IMG/VR virus record: IMGVR_UViG_3300046810_000161
Coordinates: 1-26,323 of that record
Strand: one strand, 5' to 3'
Origin: a virus
Length of the DNA: 26,323 nt
Each line of letters starts with the position of its first letter. The stretch's first letter is position 1. The notes under the pieces are model-generated. The model was not told where the DNA came from. It did not search any database and was given only the letters and a program-made list of their open reading frames with translations. A program made the translations under genes and the position numbers. Positions 7,552-15,226 of the stretch are shown here, piece by piece.

Positions 7552-10500
7552 TCACCCCAGATAGCCGAGACGGACGCGCAGCACGTTATTGGCGTCGTAG
7601 ACCGAGACGTTCAGAGAATTGATCACCAGACGGCCCTGTCCCGGGACAATGCCGTTGATTTCAAGCGTGCCGTCTTTATTCAGGATCCAGCCTTGCTGGC
7701 CGGCGATGTAGTTGGTGGAGCTGATGTAGCTGCCGATCTTGGCGTTTGTGATCGTGCCGTCCGCGACAAAGAGCGAGCTGATGAACGTCTGTCCGTTCTG
7801 CACCACGAACGGCGCAGTTGGACTTCCGCCCAGCCCATTCACCACGGCGAACCGATCAGCGCTCACCAGGAACTGACTTTGTAACCCGGCCGGGCCGTTC
7901 TCGATGCCCAAGCCGATGCCCGCTGCGACGTATCGACCGTTGGAGTCAATCTGCATCTTCACAGACCACATGGCCGACGCTTTGCCATCCGCTGCGACTT
8001 GCGCCTGGCTGACCTGCTGAATGACGGCGCTGTTCTTGCCCATCTCAACCTGAACGGTGTCGACACGCTTGCCGGTGGCTACATCGCCTTCGATCACGGC
8101 AGACTGCAATGACCAGACGCCGACGAAGGCTTCCGTCGATCCGGCGAAGCCCTCAGTTTCACCCGCCATCGGTGGATTCACTTGGGCAAACACGCCGTCG
8201 ACTTTTTCCGAGATTGCATCAACCTCACCGGTTACGACCTGAATGCGGTTGTTCACCGATCCCGGTAAGTCCGCCGGACCATCAATCAGGTTTATGCGAT
8301 CGCCAAGGTGCTGGCCAAGCGCGGAATCGCCGATCTGTCCGGAGAAATATTTCTCGTACTCGGTTTGATCAGAACTTGCTTGGCCGTTGACGCCGATACC
8401 TTGTGGATACCATGGCCCGATGTTTCCAGTCCGATCGATGAGGCGCGCCCAGAAAAAGAAACTTGCACCGGCAAGGATGTTTTGCATTTCGTGCGATGCC
8501 TGCGGATATGCGAAGTCACCCAGCTTGATCGCATCATCCCGAGAGGTCGTTTTGCTGTACCAGATCTCGGTGCGCTGAGTGTCCTCTGCACCGGGTGGAA
8601 AGCCCCACGCCATCCGGATGCCGTAAACAAGACTGGTCGGAGTGAGGAACGACACCGCCGGCGGCAACCCTTCCTTCCCTTTCAGATTGGTCAGGATCGA
8701 GTTGCGCCACGGTGACGTGATGTCGAACGCGCTGACCGCCCTGACGCGGGCCACGTAGGCGCCGGCATAGATTCCGACCACGTCCACGTTGGTCATTCCG
8801 GTGCGCTGCAGCTTTATCCAGTTGCCGCTGTCCTTGCGCCATTCGACGTCGTACCCGACCCCGCCATCCACGGCTGGCCAGGTGATCGTCATGGTTGCCA
8901 CAGCCAAGCCCTGCACAACCGATGAAGTCGACGACAGCGACACGCTCGCCGGCGCCGGAACAACGGTGATCGGGATCACGCTGATCGGGCGTTCTTCCAG
9001 GCGTGCGCCGGTGTCGATGAAAGCAAACTTGCTCGGCTCGAACTGAAGCGCGCTGATTTCGTAGTCACCCTCGGTGGTGCGCTTGGTGCGCAGCACGCGG
9101 TACAGCGGTATGGCCAGATCATGAGCGTCGAGCGCCCATTGCAACTGCGCTACCGGCGGTTCGCTGTAGGCGACCGTGACGGTCACGGCGCGGCCGTTGA
9201 CGCTCTGCACGGTACGACCTTCTGCGCGTCCGCCCGGCAGGTTGATGATCAGCCGGTCGCCGGCCTTGGCCTGGGTATCGCGATCGAGCGTGATCACCCG
9301 CCCTGCCACCGCCGAGATCCGACCGCCGACTTCGCGGCCAGCGAGAAGCGAGTCGGCCACCGGGATGATGTGACCCGGCAGCGGAATCACGCCCTCCATG
9401 CCGGTCTTGAACGACACGGTGCGGTCTTGGTTGTTGCTGAGGATCGCCCACTTGCCGCGGCGCTGGGCTTCTGAGGCGCGCGTGCAGCCAATGGCGCTCA
9501 GCTCGGTCGGACGGTCGCCGTATCGGCGTTGCAGATCAAGGTCCGCAAACGGAATGACGTCGGTGTCGTAGTTGTTCGCCGGATTGTCGTAGCTCACCAG
9601 CGCCCGGGTGTAACGGGTCTTCGCTGACGCGCTGCCGTACGAGAACTTGCCGTCGATCACGTTTGCCCGGGTGAAGACGTAGTCGAAGTCCTGCGCGCGC
9701 GGCATGTCGGCCTGCATCACCAGTTGACCCTGCGCCCAATAAGTCATGCCCCGATAAATCGCCGAGATATCGCGCAGCAGCGACCAGGCGTCCGCCTTAC
9801 CCTGCAGGTTCATGTCGCAGAGGAAGCGCGGCTCCTGACCGCCCAGCCCGTTCGGCACAAGCTGATCGCAATATTGGGCGATGCGGTACAGCTCCCACTT
9901 GTCGACCATGAACGGCTTGATGCGCTTGCCCAGGCCGAAACGCTCTTCGGTGCAGATGCCGTAGGTGATCCAAGCAGGGTTATTGGTCCAGGCCGATTTC
10001 ATCGAACCGTCCCACGTCCCGGTGTAGGTGCGCAGAATCGGGTCGTAGTTGCTCGGTACCATCCAGCGCCGGGCTTTGCACTTCACGGTCACGGCTGGAA
10101 TGTTGGTGAACTGCTCGGCGTCGAATTCGATGTAGAGCAGCGCGGTGTTTGGGTAGCGCAGCTTGGCGTCGATCACTTCGGTGTAACCGGCCACCAGCAT
10201 GGTGTCGGCGATCTTGTTGGTGTTCTGGTTCGGCGTCAGGCGGCGAACGCGGATCTGCCAGCCGGTGGTGGCGTCAGGCAGATCGATGCGGCGCGAGCGC
10301 TCGTAGCGCGTGGTGGTTTTGCCGTCGACCGCATCCACCAGCACCTGCTGATAGGCGCCGCCATCGGTGGCCACGTCGATTGCGTATTCGATGCGGTAGC
10401 CGCCGACGTTGCCCTGATCATCGGACCGTTGCAGCGCTGGCCAGGCCAAACGCATGCGCACGGCTGAAAGCTGGGTGTTCGTGATCGAGCGCACCCATGC

Positions 10501-10824
10501 CGAATCGCTGCGCAACTCGATGTTCAGCGACGTCTCGTTCTCGACGGATGGAATGCCCGGGATGTAGGTCTGATCCACCGAGCCCGGGCGCCAGTCCCAC
10601 TTCACGTTCGGGAAGTTGTAGTTGCCGCTGGCATCTCGGATCGGTGTGTTGTCCAGGTAGATATCGTAATCGGTCGGGACGCTGTCGAACTCACCCTCGC
10701 CCACCGCGATCAGCAGCTTGGCCAGGTTGGTCGAGCGCAGGCTGTCGCTGGCTTCGGTCGGCGACTTGGGCTTGCTGCTGCCGCCCTTCTCGCCATGGAT
10801 ATCGATCTGTGCTGCTGCGCCCAT
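7552..10824 (-). CDS. J: Central tail tip / host specificity protein J
   Basis: This 1090-residue protein is the J/TipJ homologue: it forms the central tail tip and contacts the receptor. It starts MGAAAQIDIHGEKGGSSKPK, with a strong GGAGGAAA site, so longer in-frame readings (to 10983) are rejected. The N-terminal half carries the phage tail baseplate-hub region typical of J. A fibronectin III-like segment lies at about residues 620-705 (WPAVDGGVGYDVEWRKD). The C-terminal about 150 residues (VNGLGGSPTAPFVVQNGQTF, VADGTITNAKIGSYI) are the recurrent J/DUF1983-like end. It follows the I gene after an unusually long spacer with hairpins. Confidence 0.93.
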   Translation of the reverse strand: MGAAAQIDIHGEKGGSSKPKSPTEASDSLRSTNLAKLLIAVGEGEFDSVPTDYDIYLDNTPIRDASGNYNFPNVKWDWRPGSVDQTYIPGIPSVENETSLNIELRSDSAWVRSITNTQLSAVRMRLAWPALQRSDDQGNVGGYRIEYAIDVATDGGAYQQVLVDAVDGKTTTRYERSRRIDLPDATTGWQIRVRRLTPNQNTNKIADTMLVAGYTEVIDAKLRYPNTALLYIEFDAEQFTNIPAVTVKCKARRWMVPSNYDPILRTYTGTWDGSMKSAWTNNPAWITYGICTEERFGLGKRIKPFMVDKWELYRIAQYCDQLVPNGLGGQEPRFLCDMNLQGKADAWSLLRDISAIYRGMTYWAQGQLVMQADMPRAQDFDYVFTRANVIDGKFSYGSASAKTRYTRALVSYDNPANNYDTDVIPFADLDLQRRYGDRPTELSAIGCTRASEAQRRGKWAILSNNQDRTVSFKTGMEGVIPLPGHIIPVADSLLAGREVGGRISAVAGRVITLDRDTQAKAGDRLIINLPGGRAEGRTVQSVNGRAVTVTVAYSEPPVAQLQWALDAHDLAIPLYRVLRTKRTTEGDYEISALQFEPSKFAFIDTGARLEERPISVIPITVVPAPASVSLSSTSSVVQGLAVATMTITWPAVDGGVGYDVEWRKDSGNWIKLQRTGMTNVDVVGIYAGAYVARVRAVSAFDITSPWRNSILTNLKGKEGLPPAVSFLTPTSLVYGIRMAWGFPPGAEDTQRTEIWYSKTTSRDDAIKLGDFAYPQASHEMQNILAGASFFFWARLIDRTGNIGPWYPQGIGVNGQASSDQTEYEKYFSGQIGDSALGQHLGDRINLIDGPADLPGSVNNRIQVVTGEVDAISEKVDGVFAQVNPPMAGETEGFAGSTEAFVGVWSLQSAVIEGDVATGKRVDTVQVEMGKNSAVIQQVSQAQVAADGKASAMWSVKMQIDSNGRYVAAGIGLGIENGPAGLQSQFLVSADRFAVVNGLGGSPTAPFVVQNGQTFISSLFVADGTITNAKIGSYISSTNYIAGQQGWILNKDGTLEINGIVPGQGRLVINSLNVSVYDANNVLRVRLGYLG

Positions 10825-10840
10825 GCTTTCCTCCAGGCAT

Positions 10841-10865
10841 AAAAAAACCGCCTCGAGGGCGGTTT
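10841..10865 (-). terminator. Intercistronic terminator immediately before J
   Basis: On the minus strand AAACCGCC and GGCGGTTT (8-bp stem; 10845-10852 with 10858-10865) enclose a 5-base loop and are followed by a T run. It ends 17 bases before the J start codon, overlapping the leader of the J ribosome site region. Confidence 0.8.
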
Positions 10866-10867
10866 GG

Positions 10868-10957
10868 TCAAAAGCCCTGAGGCTCACGTAAAGTTTCATC
10901 GCACAGATAGCAACGCGGATTAAATTCCAAAAAATTGCGCGAATCAGTGGAAACCAT
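10868..10957 (-). CDS. Mini-protein with CxxC motif, 29 aa, between two hairpins
   Basis: The frame reads MVSTDSRNFLEFNPRCYLCD followed by nine residues and TGA. GGTGGG precedes the ATG at 3-4 bases. Its start lies 10 bases after one terminator-like hairpin (10967-10993) and its stop abuts another (10841-10865), so it forms a self-contained unit in the I-J spacer. The RCYLCD segment could be half of a metal site. It is too short to be certain it is expressed. Confidence 0.35.
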   Translation of the reverse strand: MVSTDSRNFLEFNPRCYLCDETLREPQGF

Positions 10958-10966
10958 TTTCCCACC

Positions 10967-10993
10967 AAAAAGCCCTCCTTCAACTGGGAGGGC
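10967..10993 (-). terminator. Terminator-like hairpin after gene I
   Basis: GCCCTCC (10972-10978) pairs with GGAGGGC (10987-10993) and, read on the minus strand, is followed by five T. It lies about 35 bases after the end of the I gene. An adjacent hairpin (CCCTC...GAGGG, about 10998-11018) followed by TTTT could act on the plus strand, making the pair bidirectional. Confidence 0.6.
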
Positions 10994-11027: not shown

Positions 11028-11621
11028 TTAGGTCTTATCTTCAGCCAAGATCGACGCCGAGATGATCATCCCGCCCCACCGGCGTTCACCGATGCAGATC
11101 GGTGCCGGGTTGCCGCTGGCGGTGGTGTTCTTGGCGCTGCCGAAGGCGTAGGACGGGGAGTTTTCGGGGGATGCGCTTTGGCTCAGGCCTGACGCCTGCG
11201 GGCTGAGCATCTGGATTACACCGCCAGCAGTCATTGCGAGGCCGGCCGAGAACAGCGAAGGCCCAGCGCCGCCAGCAAAGAACGACGCGGCGATCAGCAC
11301 GACGCCGATGATCGTTTGAAGGACGCCCGCTCGCTTGCTACCCGAGATCACCGGGACGATCCGAATCTCCTGGGCACCACCCAGCGTAAAGTCCTTCTCG
11401 CCAACATTCGTTCGGTTCCGAAAAATTGCAAACCGCATTCCGCGTAGATCTAAATCTTTTATCGCCTGCTCAAATCCATCGAGCGTACATTTCAAAGCCT
11501 TGAAGGCCTCGCCAACTGACTTTGTTCCGAGTTCTCGGTAATGAGTTCGGCCGAACATTTTTGCCAGCGGTCCCGATAAAAGGATGGTTGTCATTGATGG
11601 GTTCGACGCTGTCGCAGCCAT
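11028..11621 (-). CDS. I: Tail assembly protein I
   Basis: This 197-residue protein matches the lambda gpI family: an N-terminal ubiquitin-like part (TTILLSGPLAKMFGRTHYRE) and a hydrophobic Gly/Ala-rich middle at about residues 99-139 (TIIGVVLIAASFFAGGAGPS). The C-terminal YAFGSAKNTTASGNPAPICI segment is typical of the family. gpI is needed for tail tip assembly. The start used is ATGGCTGCG at 11621; a GGGAGAAA site lies about 12 bases upstream and better suits an overlapping out-of-frame ATG, so the start is slightly uncertain. The N-terminal part is more AT-rich than neighbours. K, its usual neighbour, is 2.1 kb away because cargo genes intervene. Confidence 0.88.
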   Translation of the reverse strand: MAATASNPSMTTILLSGPLAKMFGRTHYRELGTKSVGEAFKALKCTLDGFEQAIKDLDLRGMRFAIFRNRTNVGEKDFTLGGAQEIRIVPVISGSKRAGVLQTIIGVVLIAASFFAGGAGPSLFSAGLAMTAGGVIQMLSPQASGLSQSASPENSPSYAFGSAKNTTASGNPAPICIGERRWGGMIISASILAEDKT

Positions 11622-11640: not shown

Positions 11641-11665
11641 AAAAAAAACCGCCATTTGGCGGTTT
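11641..11665 (-). terminator. Terminator of the lipoprotein gene
   Basis: On the minus strand AAACCGCC (11658-11665) and GGCGGTTT (11646-11653) form an 8-bp stem with a 4-base loop, followed by a T run ending at 11641. It lies 17 bases after the lipoprotein stop and 20 bases before the I start. Confidence 0.8.
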
Positions 11666-11681
11666 GATTGATTTGATCGCG

Positions 11682-12026
11682 TCACAAACAGTCGCGGACA
11701 GCGGCTTCCAGCGCGCCTCTTCCCCACATCTTTGACCAAGGCATCCGCTGGTATAAGGCGACCTTGCTACCAGATCCAGCACTGGAGACCTCAAGAACCT
11801 CATCGGTCATCATGTCAGTAGCAACCACCAAGCGATATCCATTCTCGGTTTCAGACATCGTTGCCGTTGATCGCTGCTCTTGCCATTTTGGGAAAACACA
11901 CAGCGCATACTTCTTGGCAGACTTGGCAGTAGAGGTGCTGATTGTTGGGTCATTCTTCTTCACGTCGCCTGGCGACGCACACCCCGCCAGCAGCGCTACC
12001 GCCAACGCTCCTACGATCAGTTTCAT
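11682..12026 (-). CDS. Prophage-encoded lipoprotein, 114 aa (moron candidate)
   Basis: The protein starts MKLIVGALAVALLAGCASPG, a clear type II signal peptide with lipidated Cys16. AGGAGT precedes the ATG by about 9 bases. The mature part is about 98 residues, with two further Cys (in YALCVFP and the final RDCL) that could form a disulfide. There is no Asp after the lipid Cys, so an outer-membrane destination is likely. It has its own terminator and is inserted between K and I. Phage lipoproteins such as T5 Llp block receptors against superinfection; that role is plausible here but only inferred. Confidence 0.82.
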   Translation of the reverse strand: MKLIVGALAVALLAGCASPGDVKKNDPTISTSTAKSAKKYALCVFPKWQEQRSTATMSETENGYRLVVATDMMTDEVLEVSSAGSGSKVALYQRMPWSKMWGRGALEAAVRDCL

Positions 12027-12108: not shown

Positions 12109-12741
12109 TCAGAGTTCAAGCTCGCTATCTCGATGCTTCAATGCGTCTCTCAGCAAGTGCACGACACTGCCAGCGCCCCCGTCGAAAATTAGATCGTCGT
12201 ACAGCATTGTCGACTCACGATAGTGCCCATTCAAAACCTCCAGCACTACAGAGATGGCGTTCAAACCAGCCTTGATTTTTTGACGACTCGCTGGGGGTAG
12301 CGGATTTGCGATCTGGTTCTGAATACGCACCAAATCGTTGTGCGCGATCCGCTTATTACGGTGTGCCCTTGTGAACTCCGCCTCGCTTAACGCTAAGTTG
12401 ATGGCGCTTTCTACGTTGGCTTTAACAGCCTGGTCAGTCACAAGATCCGGAATGGCTCTGATCGAGAGTGTTTTTTTTCCGGCGCTAACTGGCGGGTCGG
12501 TCAGCCTCGAAATGCCCAGCATTACGCCGTCCCAGAGCTGCGCCTGCACGACGCTGAAGAATGTCGGGGCAGCATCGTTAAGAACCCGAACAGTATCTTG
12601 ATCTACGCCAAAAAGTGCCTCGTATTGCTTCCATAGCAGCAGGATATCTAACAAGTGGTCGTTGAGGTCGCAATACATGATGCCCAAGTCCGCTCCCATG
12701 GCCGCCACGCACTGGGCTCTAACCTCTTTATGACTCAACAT
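12109..12741 (-). CDS. AbiU2-type HEPN domain protein, 210 aa
   Basis: The sequence fits the HEPN/AbiU2 family: a helical N-terminus with LLLWKQYEALFG, the LGISRLTDPP motif at about 75-84, and FTRAHRNKRIAHNDL carrying R128-x5-H134, the HEPN R-x4-6-H ribonuclease signature. AbiU2 was described as an abortive infection determinant; related HEPN proteins cut RNA. I used the ATG at 12741; a TTG at 12753 would add four residues. The gene stands alone on the minus strand, divergent from a plus-strand gene, inside the tail operon. No classical antitoxin (MNT) is adjacent. A defence or superinfection role is inferred. Confidence 0.75.
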   Translation of the reverse strand: MLSHKEVRAQCVAAMGADLGIMYCDLNDHLLDILLLWKQYEALFGVDQDTVRVLNDAAPTFFSVVQAQLWDGVMLGISRLTDPPVSAGKKTLSIRAIPDLVTDQAVKANVESAINLALSEAEFTRAHRNKRIAHNDLVRIQNQIANPLPPASRQKIKAGLNAISVVLEVLNGHYRESTMLYDDLIFDGGAGSVVHLLRDALKHRDSELEL

Positions 12742-12804
12742 TCCCAGATCCAATGGCCATTTTTAAGCCGAAAGGATGTCACGGCGCTTATAACACCTCA
12801 ATGC

Positions 12805-12829
12805 CTGTCCACCCATCCAGTGTGGACAG
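12805..12829. promoter_or_regulatory. Inverted repeat in divergent promoter region
   Basis: CTGTCCAC (12805-12812) and GTGGACAG (12822-12829) form perfect 8-base arms around 9 bases. The repeat lies between the divergent AbiU2-type gene and the 100-residue gene, where an operator for a dimeric regulator would be expected. It is not a LexA box (wrong spacing). Regulator unknown. Confidence 0.5.
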
Positions 12830-12903
12830 AAAACCAGTAACGTCACGCTGATCTCCGATAGTAGCCTCTTGCCTCCACGACATAGCATTTCAAAGGATTG
12901 CGC

Positions 12904-13206
12904 ATGAATGATCCGAAGCAAGCTCTCGAGAAAATCGAAGAGCTGATTAACGCCGCGCGCGCCACGGATGACCTTTTCTGCCATGCAGCTGCCTTTTCCG
13001 CCATATCAGTACTCGTGCAGAGTCTGGAGAACTACTTCGAAGAGAAGGCGCCATATGCAGGCGAGAATGTGGAACGACTACGCTCTCACTCGGCAGCGAT
13101 GCTTGGTTACGACATCACAAACGGGCATGGCGTCGAACAGCATCACGTTTGGATGCTGAGCGCAATTTCGGCACTCAGCGGAGTGCTGCGAAAATTGAAT
13201 ACTTAA
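12904..13206 (+). CDS. Hypothetical helical protein, 100 aa, opposite to the late operon
   Basis: The ATG at 12904 is preceded by AAAGGA with 6 bases spacing. The product (MNDPKQALEKIEELINAARA...) is predicted almost all-helical, with no signal peptide or membrane helix. I do not recognise it. It runs on the plus strand against the tail genes and is divergent from the AbiU2-type gene, so it is probably expressed in the lysogen. A partner or regulator of the HEPN protein is one possibility from position only. Confidence 0.6.
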   Translation: MNDPKQALEKIEELINAARATDDLFCHAAAFSAISVLVQSLENYFEEKAPYAGENVERLRSHSAAMLGYDITNGHGVEQHHVWMLSAISALSGVLRKLNT

Positions 13207-13213
13207 AGGATTC

Positions 13214-13246
13214 CCCAGTCCTTTGCCTGCAAGCCCAAGGACTGGG
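13214..13246. repeat. 10-bp stem hairpin between two plus-strand genes
   Basis: CCCAGTCCTT (13214-13223) pairs perfectly with AAGGACTGGG (13237-13246) around 13 bases. It starts 7 bases after a stop codon but lacks a T run, so it may be a weak terminator, an RNA processing site or a stabilising hairpin. Confidence 0.6.
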
Positions 13247-13286
13247 ATTGCGCCAATTTCGGCGCGGATAACGCAAGGAGTGTGAA

Positions 13287-13556
13287 ATGCAACTAGATCC
13301 ACCAAAACAATCCCAGCTAACGCTGGATCAGCGACTCAGCGCGCTTGAAGTTGCTGCAAGCAGCTTTGCGACTGCTCATACAAACGCTATCGCCAGTGTC
13401 GTCTCTGCAATATGCAAGCTGCCTGGAGTCGATATCAGGCAACTCGAGAGCGATCTTGTCGAACTAAAGACGCTGCCTACCGAAGGAATTGATCCAATCC
13501 TGTACGGCAACTTGATCGACTTGTTTATTTCGCGTATCGAGCATGCTCGAGGGTAA
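13287..13556 (+). CDS. Hypothetical helical protein, 89 aa
   Basis: AAGGAG lies 6 bases upstream of the ATG, a strong site. The product (MQLDPPKQSQLTLDQRLSAL...) is helical and soluble; I recognise no family. It follows the 100-residue gene on the same strand after a hairpin, and the two may form an operon. Its end overlaps by 32 bases, tail to tail, with a minus-strand small gene. Confidence 0.6.
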   Translation: MQLDPPKQSQLTLDQRLSALEVAASSFATAHTNAIASVVSAICKLPGVDIRQLESDLVELKTLPTEGIDPILYGNLIDLFISRIEHARG

Positions 13557-13683
13557 ACCCGAGGGCGTGAGATTTAGAGGCACCTGAAATCGTCACACGC
13601 CATCGAACTGGCGCGTTGTCGCGGATGATAGCCTCGACAATGCGCACCTTCCCTTCTTCTGTTGCTTCAAATGGCTGGCTCAT
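13525..13683 (-). CDS. Small protein, 52 aa, downstream of K
   Basis: The frame starts MSQPFEATEEGKVRIVEAII and ends LEHARYAK. AGGAG precedes the ATG by about 9 bases. It begins 27 bases after the K stop, on the same strand, so it would be cotranscribed with the tail genes. A beta-hairpin-like pattern (VRWRVTISG) is visible. Its end overlaps the plus-strand 89-residue gene by 32 bases. Function unknown. Confidence 0.55.
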   Translation of the reverse strand: MSQPFEATEEGKVRIVEAIIRDNAPVRWRVTISGASKSHALGFTLEHARYAK

Positions 13684-13710: not shown

Positions 13711-14475
13711 TCATAAAGTCGATTGTGCACCTTTGTGCCTTAGAATCAGGCGTGTCCGGTCGAACCATGGCCCACCGAAAACGATGACCTCCGATAGTCG
13801 GCCGTACAGGTGGTGAAGCAGAAACGGGCCGGGGCCGAACGTCGCGGCATCCTCTCCAGGCAGTGCCGGATCGCCGCCGAGGAAGATCCCGGCGTGGTTT
13901 GGGTAAACCGTCCGTCCGACCTCCATCACGATCATGTCGCCGCGCTGCGGCTGGTCGACGCGGTAGAAGCCGGCTGCCTCGTAGTTCGCTTCGTAGAGGC
14001 TGGTGTTGTCCTTGCTTTCCCACCAGCCATCGGCGCGCTTGAAGGCCTCGAACTCCAAGCCCCACTCGCGCTTGTACCAATCGGCGCAGACCTGCCAGCA
14101 GTCCCATGCGCCGTGCACAAATGGCCGCTTCAGCAGCGGAACGTCGCCAGATGGCATGACAGTTCTCAGATCGCCCTCCGGCCAACTGAGTATGTGCCAA
14201 GGCATCGCGGTGGCTTCGCACATGGCGAGGTCACGCGGTGACGGTCTGCTGGTAGCGTCTGGATGCGAATGAACCACGCCGATTACTTCGCCTTCGTCTT
14301 CGGCCGCTGCGTACTGTTCAGGATCGATTCGGAACTCTTCGTTCGGCTCGGTCGAGATGTTGGCGCAAGGGAAGTATTGCTGCTTGCGCCCGATCGCGAG
14401 CAGCAGCCCGCAGCACTCTTTCGGGTACTCGGCCGCCGCGTGCGCCTGGATCGCATTCAAGATGTGCTTTCGCAT
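13711..14475 (-). CDS. K: Tail assembly protein K: JAB/MPN peptidase plus NlpC/P60 domain
   Basis: This 254-residue protein combines two peptidase folds, as in lambda gpK. The N-terminal JAB domain shows Glu20, then HSHP (His69, His71) with Ser79 and Asp82, the metalloprotease pattern. The C-terminal NlpC/P60 domain shows Cys126 (AWDCWQVC) and His194 (NHAGIFLG). It may process tail proteins during tip assembly and open peptidoglycan at DNA entry. GGAG lies 5 bases before the ATG at 14475; a longer start at 14490 would overlap L. It follows L by one base. Confidence 0.92.
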   Translation of the reverse strand: MRKHILNAIQAHAAAEYPKECCGLLLAIGRKQQYFPCANISTEPNEEFRIDPEQYAAAEDEGEVIGVVHSHPDATSRPSPRDLAMCEATAMPWHILSWPEGDLRTVMPSGDVPLLKRPFVHGAWDCWQVCADWYKREWGLEFEAFKRADGWWESKDNTSLYEANYEAAGFYRVDQPQRGDMIVMEVGRTVYPNHAGIFLGGDPALPGEDAATFGPGPFLLHHLYGRLSEVIVFGGPWFDRTRLILRHKGAQSTL

Positions 14476-14476
14476 G

Positions 14477-15226
14477 TCAGCTCCGTGCAATCAGGGAAAC
14501 AGCCGGGAAGCCACCGAACGGCAGCGGGTTACCCTCTCCGAAGCGCGGGATGCAACCTTTGCCCAGCGTGGCGTCACATTCATCCAGCTCCGGGTTGTCG
14601 GTGACGATGCCGTCCTTGGTCACGTATGGCCCGGTGTATCCGCAGTTCGGCCCACGGTAACCACCAGTGAGGCACCAGTGGCAAAGGGTCGTGGCCTGCC
14701 GGCCGATCGATTCGTTGCCCACGTCGCCCGGGCTGGCCAACTCCCAACTGACATTCTCCCCGTCCTCGTTCGTTTTCTGGTCGATGTACCAGACCTCGAT
14801 CGTCTCTTGGGTTGGATCTGCCGTCGGATTGCCGGCTGGGAAGTTGGCGGCATCGAGGTAGCTGCCGAGCGTGTGGCGCATCGTCAGCTTGAACTCGAGC
14901 AGATCTTCGAACGCCAGACAGAGCGCCGTGATGCGCCCGTTGACGTTACCAACAGAAAGCGTGGGCCGAACCGCCGTGCCATCCCCGTTCGCCTCTATGC
15001 CGTCGATCTGCATCGGCCAGGCGCTGTACTCATTGCCCTGCCAGTAAATCGCCTTCGCCGGCAGTTGGTCTGCATTGTCGCCGGCAGCGATAAGCTCGGC
15101 CGACGTGTGCGGAATCGCGTGCCCGTGGAAGCGCAGAACGTCCGCGCCGTAGTCCGTGCCGTCCAATTCAAAGAGCAGCACTTCGCTGCCAGGCTCAAGC
15201 ACCTGGATATCACTGATCAGCGGCAT
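14477..15226 (-). CDS. L: Minor tail protein L with probable Fe-S cluster
   Basis: This 249-residue protein matches the lambda gpL family. The C-terminal domain has Cys182, Cys185, Cys195, Cys217 and Cys225. Four of these (185, 195, 217, 225) are spaced like the conserved Cys that hold an iron-sulfur cluster in lambda gpL (established knowledge for that protein). It is part of the tail tip complex, between M and K, in the lambda order. The N-terminal domain (VLLFELDGTDYG...) is the beta-rich hub-like part. Confidence 0.92.
   Translation of the reverse strand: MPLISDIQVLEPGSEVLLFELDGTDYGADVLRFHGHAIPHTSAELIAAGDNADQLPAKAIYWQGNEYSAWPMQIDGIEANGDGTAVRPTLSVGNVNGRITALCLAFEDLLEFKLTMRHTLGSYLDAANFPAGNPTADPTQETIEVWYIDQKTNEDGENVSWELASPGDVGNESIGRQATTLCHWCLTGGYRGPNCGYTGPYVTKDGIVTDNPELDECDATLGKGCIPRFGEGNPLPFGGFPAVSLIARS

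Follow-up and report, generated by a model that had tools for sequence, protein, structure and literature searches.

The interval between tail genes K and I of a Pseudomonas siphophage with lambda-like tail genes, as we judge the phage to be from its gene content and best phage matches, is a hotspot of fixed architecture, in which a promoter-like element (P) is followed by an optional variable gene, an RNA leader (E) and a variable cassette gene, with a small gene (s) facing them on the late strand. The slot keeps P and the folded leader E, and the small cassette and the facing gene s are swapped between phages. We propose that the interval is a modular exclusion and counter-exclusion slot of Pseudomonas lambda-like phages, a reading of the sequences that has perhaps an even chance of being right; in it we infer the promoter activity and timing of P, the effector function of the cassette, the antidote function of s and the target. 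The analysis was made on a virus record of 26,323 bases (the window), along the whole of which positions are counted, and on a comparison set of more than 150 related loci.

Tail gene K (13711–14475, minus strand), with JAB and NlpC/P60 domains (Pfam Prok-JAB, E = 2e-19, plus NLPC_P60; phrog_30, E = 3e-121), forms the constant right border of the slot and is flanked by tail gene L (14477–15226, minus strand), which is homologous and co-directional next to K in nearly all relatives. The left border is tail gene I (11028–11621, minus strand; phrog_32, E = 2.6e-65). It is adjoined by a lipoprotein gene (11682–12026, minus strand; phrog_914, that is PHROG 914, E = 6.5e-35), and a terminator-like hairpin followed by a T run, found by a consensus scan only, lies between the two (11646–11665, minus strand). 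Further along the operon is the gene for the tail-tip protein J (7552–10983, minus strand), which has a C-terminal Phage_Tail_Tip domain (PF09327, E = 5e-49). The first-pass annotation had described cargo that splits K from I, and this is borne out in the sequence: the two genes are separated by 2,089 bp, and the five genes claimed for the gap (encoding a HEPN protein, proteins of 100, 89 and 52 residues, and the lipoprotein) were all found where they had been placed.

Across relatives, the content of the interval is exchanged while its borders stay, as had been anticipated. The loci were gathered by searching with the island's own parts, and percentages are to be read as a biased census: in the 93 loci that have the two border genes, their separation varies between −30 and 8,265 bp, the lipoprotein gene has a match in 62, the HEPN gene is present in only 11 and the 100-residue family in only 9. 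Pairs of phages with K proteins 95–100% identical have a cassette subfamily in common in 11% of cases, with most lower identity bins at 3–11%. Phages with K at least 95% identical thus usually differ in their cassette, and across the pairwise bins K identity is no predictor of the cassette. Related cargo also occupies other insertion points, between L and M in one locus (L024), where K and I are adjacent, and between I and J in phages Alize and phiAH14a. No description of the slot, P or E was found in the open-access literature, which is weak evidence of absence since subscription papers and preprints lay outside the search.

Element P (12805–12865, plus strand) occupies the spacer between the HEPN gene and the 100-residue gene, and comprises an inverted repeat (12805–12829) with arms CTGTCCAC (12805–12812) and GTGGACAG (12822–12829), the box CCAGTAACG (12834–12842) and TAGTAGC (12859–12865). 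The perfect 8-base repeat, noted earlier as shared by a divergent HEPN/100-residue pair, is exact and real, but it is not specific to that pair, being part of an element that stands before many different genes. We identified about 120 distinct copies of P, of types A and B, upstream of different, unrelated genes. The element is built as CCAGTAACG-N15-17-TAGTAGC with one of two boxes upstream: the type A box is CTGTACGAATC (42 distinct copies), and the type B box is the inverted repeat CATCCAGCGTGGATG, in which 5 or 6 of the 6 arm pairs are kept in 53 of 61 copies. The distance from P to E is fixed at 20–25 nt in 34 loci, and in 57 loci a first gene comes between P and E. This position makes P promoter-like; it gave no match to the sigma-70 consensus, and no sigma-70 consensus site was found in the window. 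CTG-N10-CAG, the core of the LexA box, is present at 12805–12820 and in 98 of the 103 typed copies of P. Control by LexA and the SOS response is possible on this pattern, but type B copies are rich in G and C at its centre, and the copies of each type share a single line of descent.

Element E, which was absent from the first-pass listing, is a 63-nt leader with a conserved double hairpin (13208–13270, plus strand; hairpin 1 at 13214–13246, hairpin 2 at 13250–13265) behind the 100-residue gene. It is found at high identity beside otherwise unrelated genes. An exact 29-base pattern recovered E from at least 119 viral stretches, and a profile search (nhmmer) from 144 sequences including the source, nearly always with one copy per locus. 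The exact pattern also occurs in 22 of 399 sampled Pseudomonas genomes (25 copies), and K lies within most of the 3-kb stretches fetched around these copies. In 33 distinct sequences, 95.5% of hairpin pairs are kept and five pairs are changed on both sides, and the resulting covariation score was reached by none of 500 shuffles. The structure is therefore supported, although the small RNAalifold covariation term (−0.64) indicates that the conservation of E is mostly that of primary sequence; a search of Rfam returned no significant match. A conserved hairpin before unrelated small open reading frames might also be expected of an integron-like cassette system with E as its recombination site. 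E, however, occurs about once per locus and not once per gene, so that there is no one site per cassette, and it lies 20–25 nt after P or behind the first gene, and beside K in most genome copies; we give the integron-like reading almost no credence.

The first gene after P in the window (gene 1 of the opposite-strand transcript; 12904–13206, plus strand) encodes 100 residues predicted to form four helices (AlphaFold2 pLDDT 93.3), and has relatives in loci L022–L024, L056 and L109. The median dN/dS of first genes is 0.16. Families at this position are highly diverse, most of them without a known family. Two further loci retain only the first 25 residues of the 100-residue gene at 96–100% identity, followed by unrelated sequence (L025 near 6001 and L026 near 1903), apparently marking a recombination junction just inside the gene. 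The commonest first gene after P has 28 members of about 85 residues (in L003, L004, L006, L012 and 24 other loci); the members viewed carry CxxC...HxH, are possibly zinc-binding and had no significant Pfam match. In locus L098, the first gene has the look of a ClpP/SppA-type serine protease, by eye only.

Downstream of E, the K–I loci have a start codon and then the cassette gene, an open reading frame of 60–90 residues in most loci and about 200 in some. In the window, this candidate exclusion effector encodes 89 residues (13287–13556, plus strand; phrog_16832, E = 5e-12), predicted to form three helices (AlphaFold2 pLDDT 91.6). Searches with the 89- and 100-residue models found no significant fold match in the PDB. 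At E < 1e-3, the 113 cassette proteins group into 19 families, the largest of which includes the 89-residue protein, and iterative profiles merge some of these into one helical family of 56 members that includes it. Purifying selection on the cassettes is clear (median dN/dS 0.14). Their diversity is great, and most have no known family. All eight members of family C02 (about 200 residues) carry a HEPN-like motif, RHKIVHW or RN[EV][VI]AHW; the two members scanned gave no significant Pfam match.

Facing the cassette is the s gene, which in the window encodes 52 residues (13525–13683, minus strand), starts about 25 nt past the stop codon of K and overlaps the 3′ end of the 89-residue gene; it is a candidate antidote. 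Homologues 54–56% identical stand in the same place in loci L027 and L028. With s defined as any open reading frame of at least 25 residues that has a ribosome site and a start 8–45 nt past the K stop, 76 of 98 loci have one, where shuffles gave 4.3 on average; the commonest offset is 24–25 nt. The s genes (median dN/dS 0.30) converge tail to tail on the cassette and usually overlap its 3′ end. The type of s tracks the type of cassette, and a comparison of loci L097 and L117 shows the second part of s going with the cassette type even though the first parts are different. Since cassette and s overlap on the DNA, this tracking is not independent evidence of interaction and could be produced by co-inheritance alone. 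On this pattern, the pair that tracks together is the convergent 89- and 52-residue pair and not the HEPN gene with a partner.

At the sequence level, a number of s families look like pieces of J's C-terminal domain, the region changed by mutations that confer escape from Tai, an inhibitor of tail assembly. Of 73 s proteins, 17 match J proteins at E < 0.05, compared with 5 of 730 shuffled sequences (Fisher p = 6e-15, a value that is too small because related s proteins are not independent). Most matches lie towards the C terminus of J, in the part that is the Phage_Tail_Tip domain in the source phage. In profile alignments to J, no column shuffle scored as high as the s group associated with cassette family C01, and the same held for three groups picked by motif. 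The selection of these three was post hoc, so that their significance is inflated; the C01 group was defined by cassette family alone. By the same alignments and shuffles, no resemblance to J was seen for the s groups of C02, C04 and C06. The 52-residue protein itself is not significantly similar to J (11 of 100 column shuffles were equally high; p = 0.65 against J), and a wider PFE group that includes it is borderline (1 of 97 shuffles as good). The s proteins do not match the J of their own phage best, being no closer to it than to other J proteins (mean percentile 0.56), and this idea was rejected. The cassettes were likewise rejected as relatives of J, with none matching J proteins.

The layout of the slot, a small effector-like gene opposite the late genes and an antidote-like gene on the late strand, has a published counterpart in phage JBD26, where Tab (83 residues) is encoded opposite to the late operon from its own promoter and blocks tail assembly, and anti-Tab is expressed late (PMC10884400). 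In both, the antidote or candidate antidote comes immediately behind a late gene and in its orientation, and the reading frames overlap tail to tail, by 47 nt in the annotated tab and anti-tab ORFs; at present this likeness is one of layout only. The systems differ: Tab is encoded between the terminase genes, acts on the tape measure protein and hardly varies among the phages of our collection, whereas the slot between K and I has many alternative cassettes, a shared RNA leader and several J-like s types. Tab matched one cassette in a single pair (14.4 bits), and since family profiles do not separate it from shuffles, Tab was not accepted as a member of the large cassette family. Tai proteins also block tail assembly, and the mutations that escape them map to the C-terminal region of J; phage phi80 has a counter-defence that acts late, and its authors expect further pairs of this kind to exist (PMC11364771). 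Tai and Ati share with our model a prophage moron that blocks tail assembly and a late counter-defence on the opposite strand, but tai and ati are located upstream of the packaging module and it is their 5′ ends that overlap, and TaiEcA is a protein of 204 residues that matches no cassette. Single-sequence searches (phmmer) found no similarity of TaiEcA or AtiEcA to cassettes or s proteins. As in the antiviral hotspots of P2-like phages and P4-like satellites, which are reported to have exchangeable anti-phage genes at a fixed site (PMC9122126), the cassettes share one position; the slot differs in lying inside the tail operon, in its constant P and E and in its facing late gene, and its anti-phage function is a candidate function only.

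Because the two exclusion pairs share the logic of the slot, we propose the cassette as a tail-tip exclusion protein and s as its late antidote, in some types a decoy of J. P would drive a short opposite-strand transcript comprising an optional first gene (100 residues here), the leader E and one cassette gene (89 residues here). The cassette protein would be made in the lysogen and would keep superinfecting relatives from assembling their tail tips, in the manner of Tab and Tai. Upon prophage induction, late transcription would make s, which would neutralise the cassette protein and in several types may do so as a mimic of the J segment under attack; convergent late transcription would also oppose the cassette mRNA.

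We consider an ordinary moron hotspot a rather less probable reading than such an exclusion slot. In that case P and E would be a shared expression signal that recombination reuses as homology arms, the cassettes would serve a range of roles in the lysogen (host physiology, receptor masking, anti-defence), and the s proteins would have nothing to do with the cassettes, being accessory tail-tip proteins or chaperones made late. The diversity of cassette and first-gene families, most without a known family, would suit this explanation, the overlap of s with the cassette would account for their linkage physically, and pieces of a J domain would equally fit an assembly helper. It fits less well with loci L097 and L117, whose s genes differ in their first part and still match the cassette type in their second, and with a layout equal to that of tab and anti-tab.

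More tentatively, and we think with somewhat worse than even prospects, a single plug-in slot with a shared promoter and structured RNA leader in Pseudomonas tail operons may be a reservoir of dozens of effectors, many acting on the tail tip, whose late antidotes are decoys of the attacked J domain. If so, P and E would be sequence tags with which many unannotated prophage exclusion genes and their antidotes could be listed from genomes, and E would be a testable RNA leader common to unrelated genes. Antidotes that imitate J would show how phages shield their own tail tip from weapons aimed at relatives, and the slot would help to account for the different small genes that close relatives among temperate phages have at a single site.

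The HEPN gene stands apart from this pair. HEPN proteins have R-x4-6-H as their catalytic motif. The gene in the window (12109–12753, minus strand, co-directional with the tail genes) scores 59.2 bits against the Pfam HEPN_AbiU2 profile (PF18734; curated cutoff 26.8, E = 4.9e-16), and its assignment by this profile is secure at the family level. The R-x5-H motif reported in the first-pass annotation is likewise upheld, RNKRIAH being invariant in 15 homologues. Translation more likely begins at the ATG at 12741 than at the TTG at 12753. The contexts named for HEPN_AbiU2 genes include Sel1-repeat or restriction–modification neighbours (PMC3710099), whereas the gene here has neither. PADLOC matched none of the five island proteins, HEPN included; NCBIfam had no match for the HEPN, 89- or 52-residue proteins, and PDB sequence searches with the HEPN and 89-residue profiles gave nothing significant.

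A lysogen-expressed AbiU2-type ribonuclease with the divergent 100-residue protein as partner or antitoxin would agree with the HEPN_AbiU2 profile and invariant RNKRIAH, and with a short divergent spacer containing an inverted repeat. The 15 viral relatives in IMG/VR, which are on the tail-gene strand and mostly between K and the lipoprotein gene or I, argue against it. When the relatives of both proteins were searched, the two genes occurred together only in the source window: no other HEPN relative has a 100-residue homologue as neighbour, in L002 and L013 HEPN comes straight after K and the opposite strand has no gene between them, and the 100-residue family occurs without HEPN in all five loci named above (L022–L024, L056, L109). 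The inverted repeat, moreover, belongs to P. The proposed partnership of HEPN with the 100- or 89-residue gene is thus not supported, and we regard the 100-residue version as very improbable.

HEPN is a separate, optional late-strand gene, probably for an RNase-type defence protein. Its orientation with the late operon does not imply expression in the lysogen, and late-only expression would leave an uninfected lysogen unprotected. Its action might depend on a superinfecting relative that turns on the late operon of the resident prophage, or it might have a promoter of its own. The first option, in which the relative's late activator turns on the resident operon and HEPN degrades RNA and aborts the infection, concerns HEPN only and is compatible with the exclusion slot; it would suit a gene that never departs from the orientation of the tail genes and that only 11 of 93 loci possess, but HEPN would then also be on during the phage's own lytic growth, and we think this option unlikely. 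One HEPN relative (L020:4866-5465; MT836437) has an internal stop codon in the matched stretch, possibly reflecting a broken copy or a sequencing error. Profiles of C02 and of HEPN gave no significant match to TaiEcA, nor did profile comparison show a significant relation of Tai to the HEPN families here, and the word HEPN is not in the main text of the Tai paper (PMC11364771). In TaiEcA of phi80 (L197:4366-4980) and its homologues in L203 and L211–L213, we observed RND[LI]AH, a HEPN-type R-x4-H motif.
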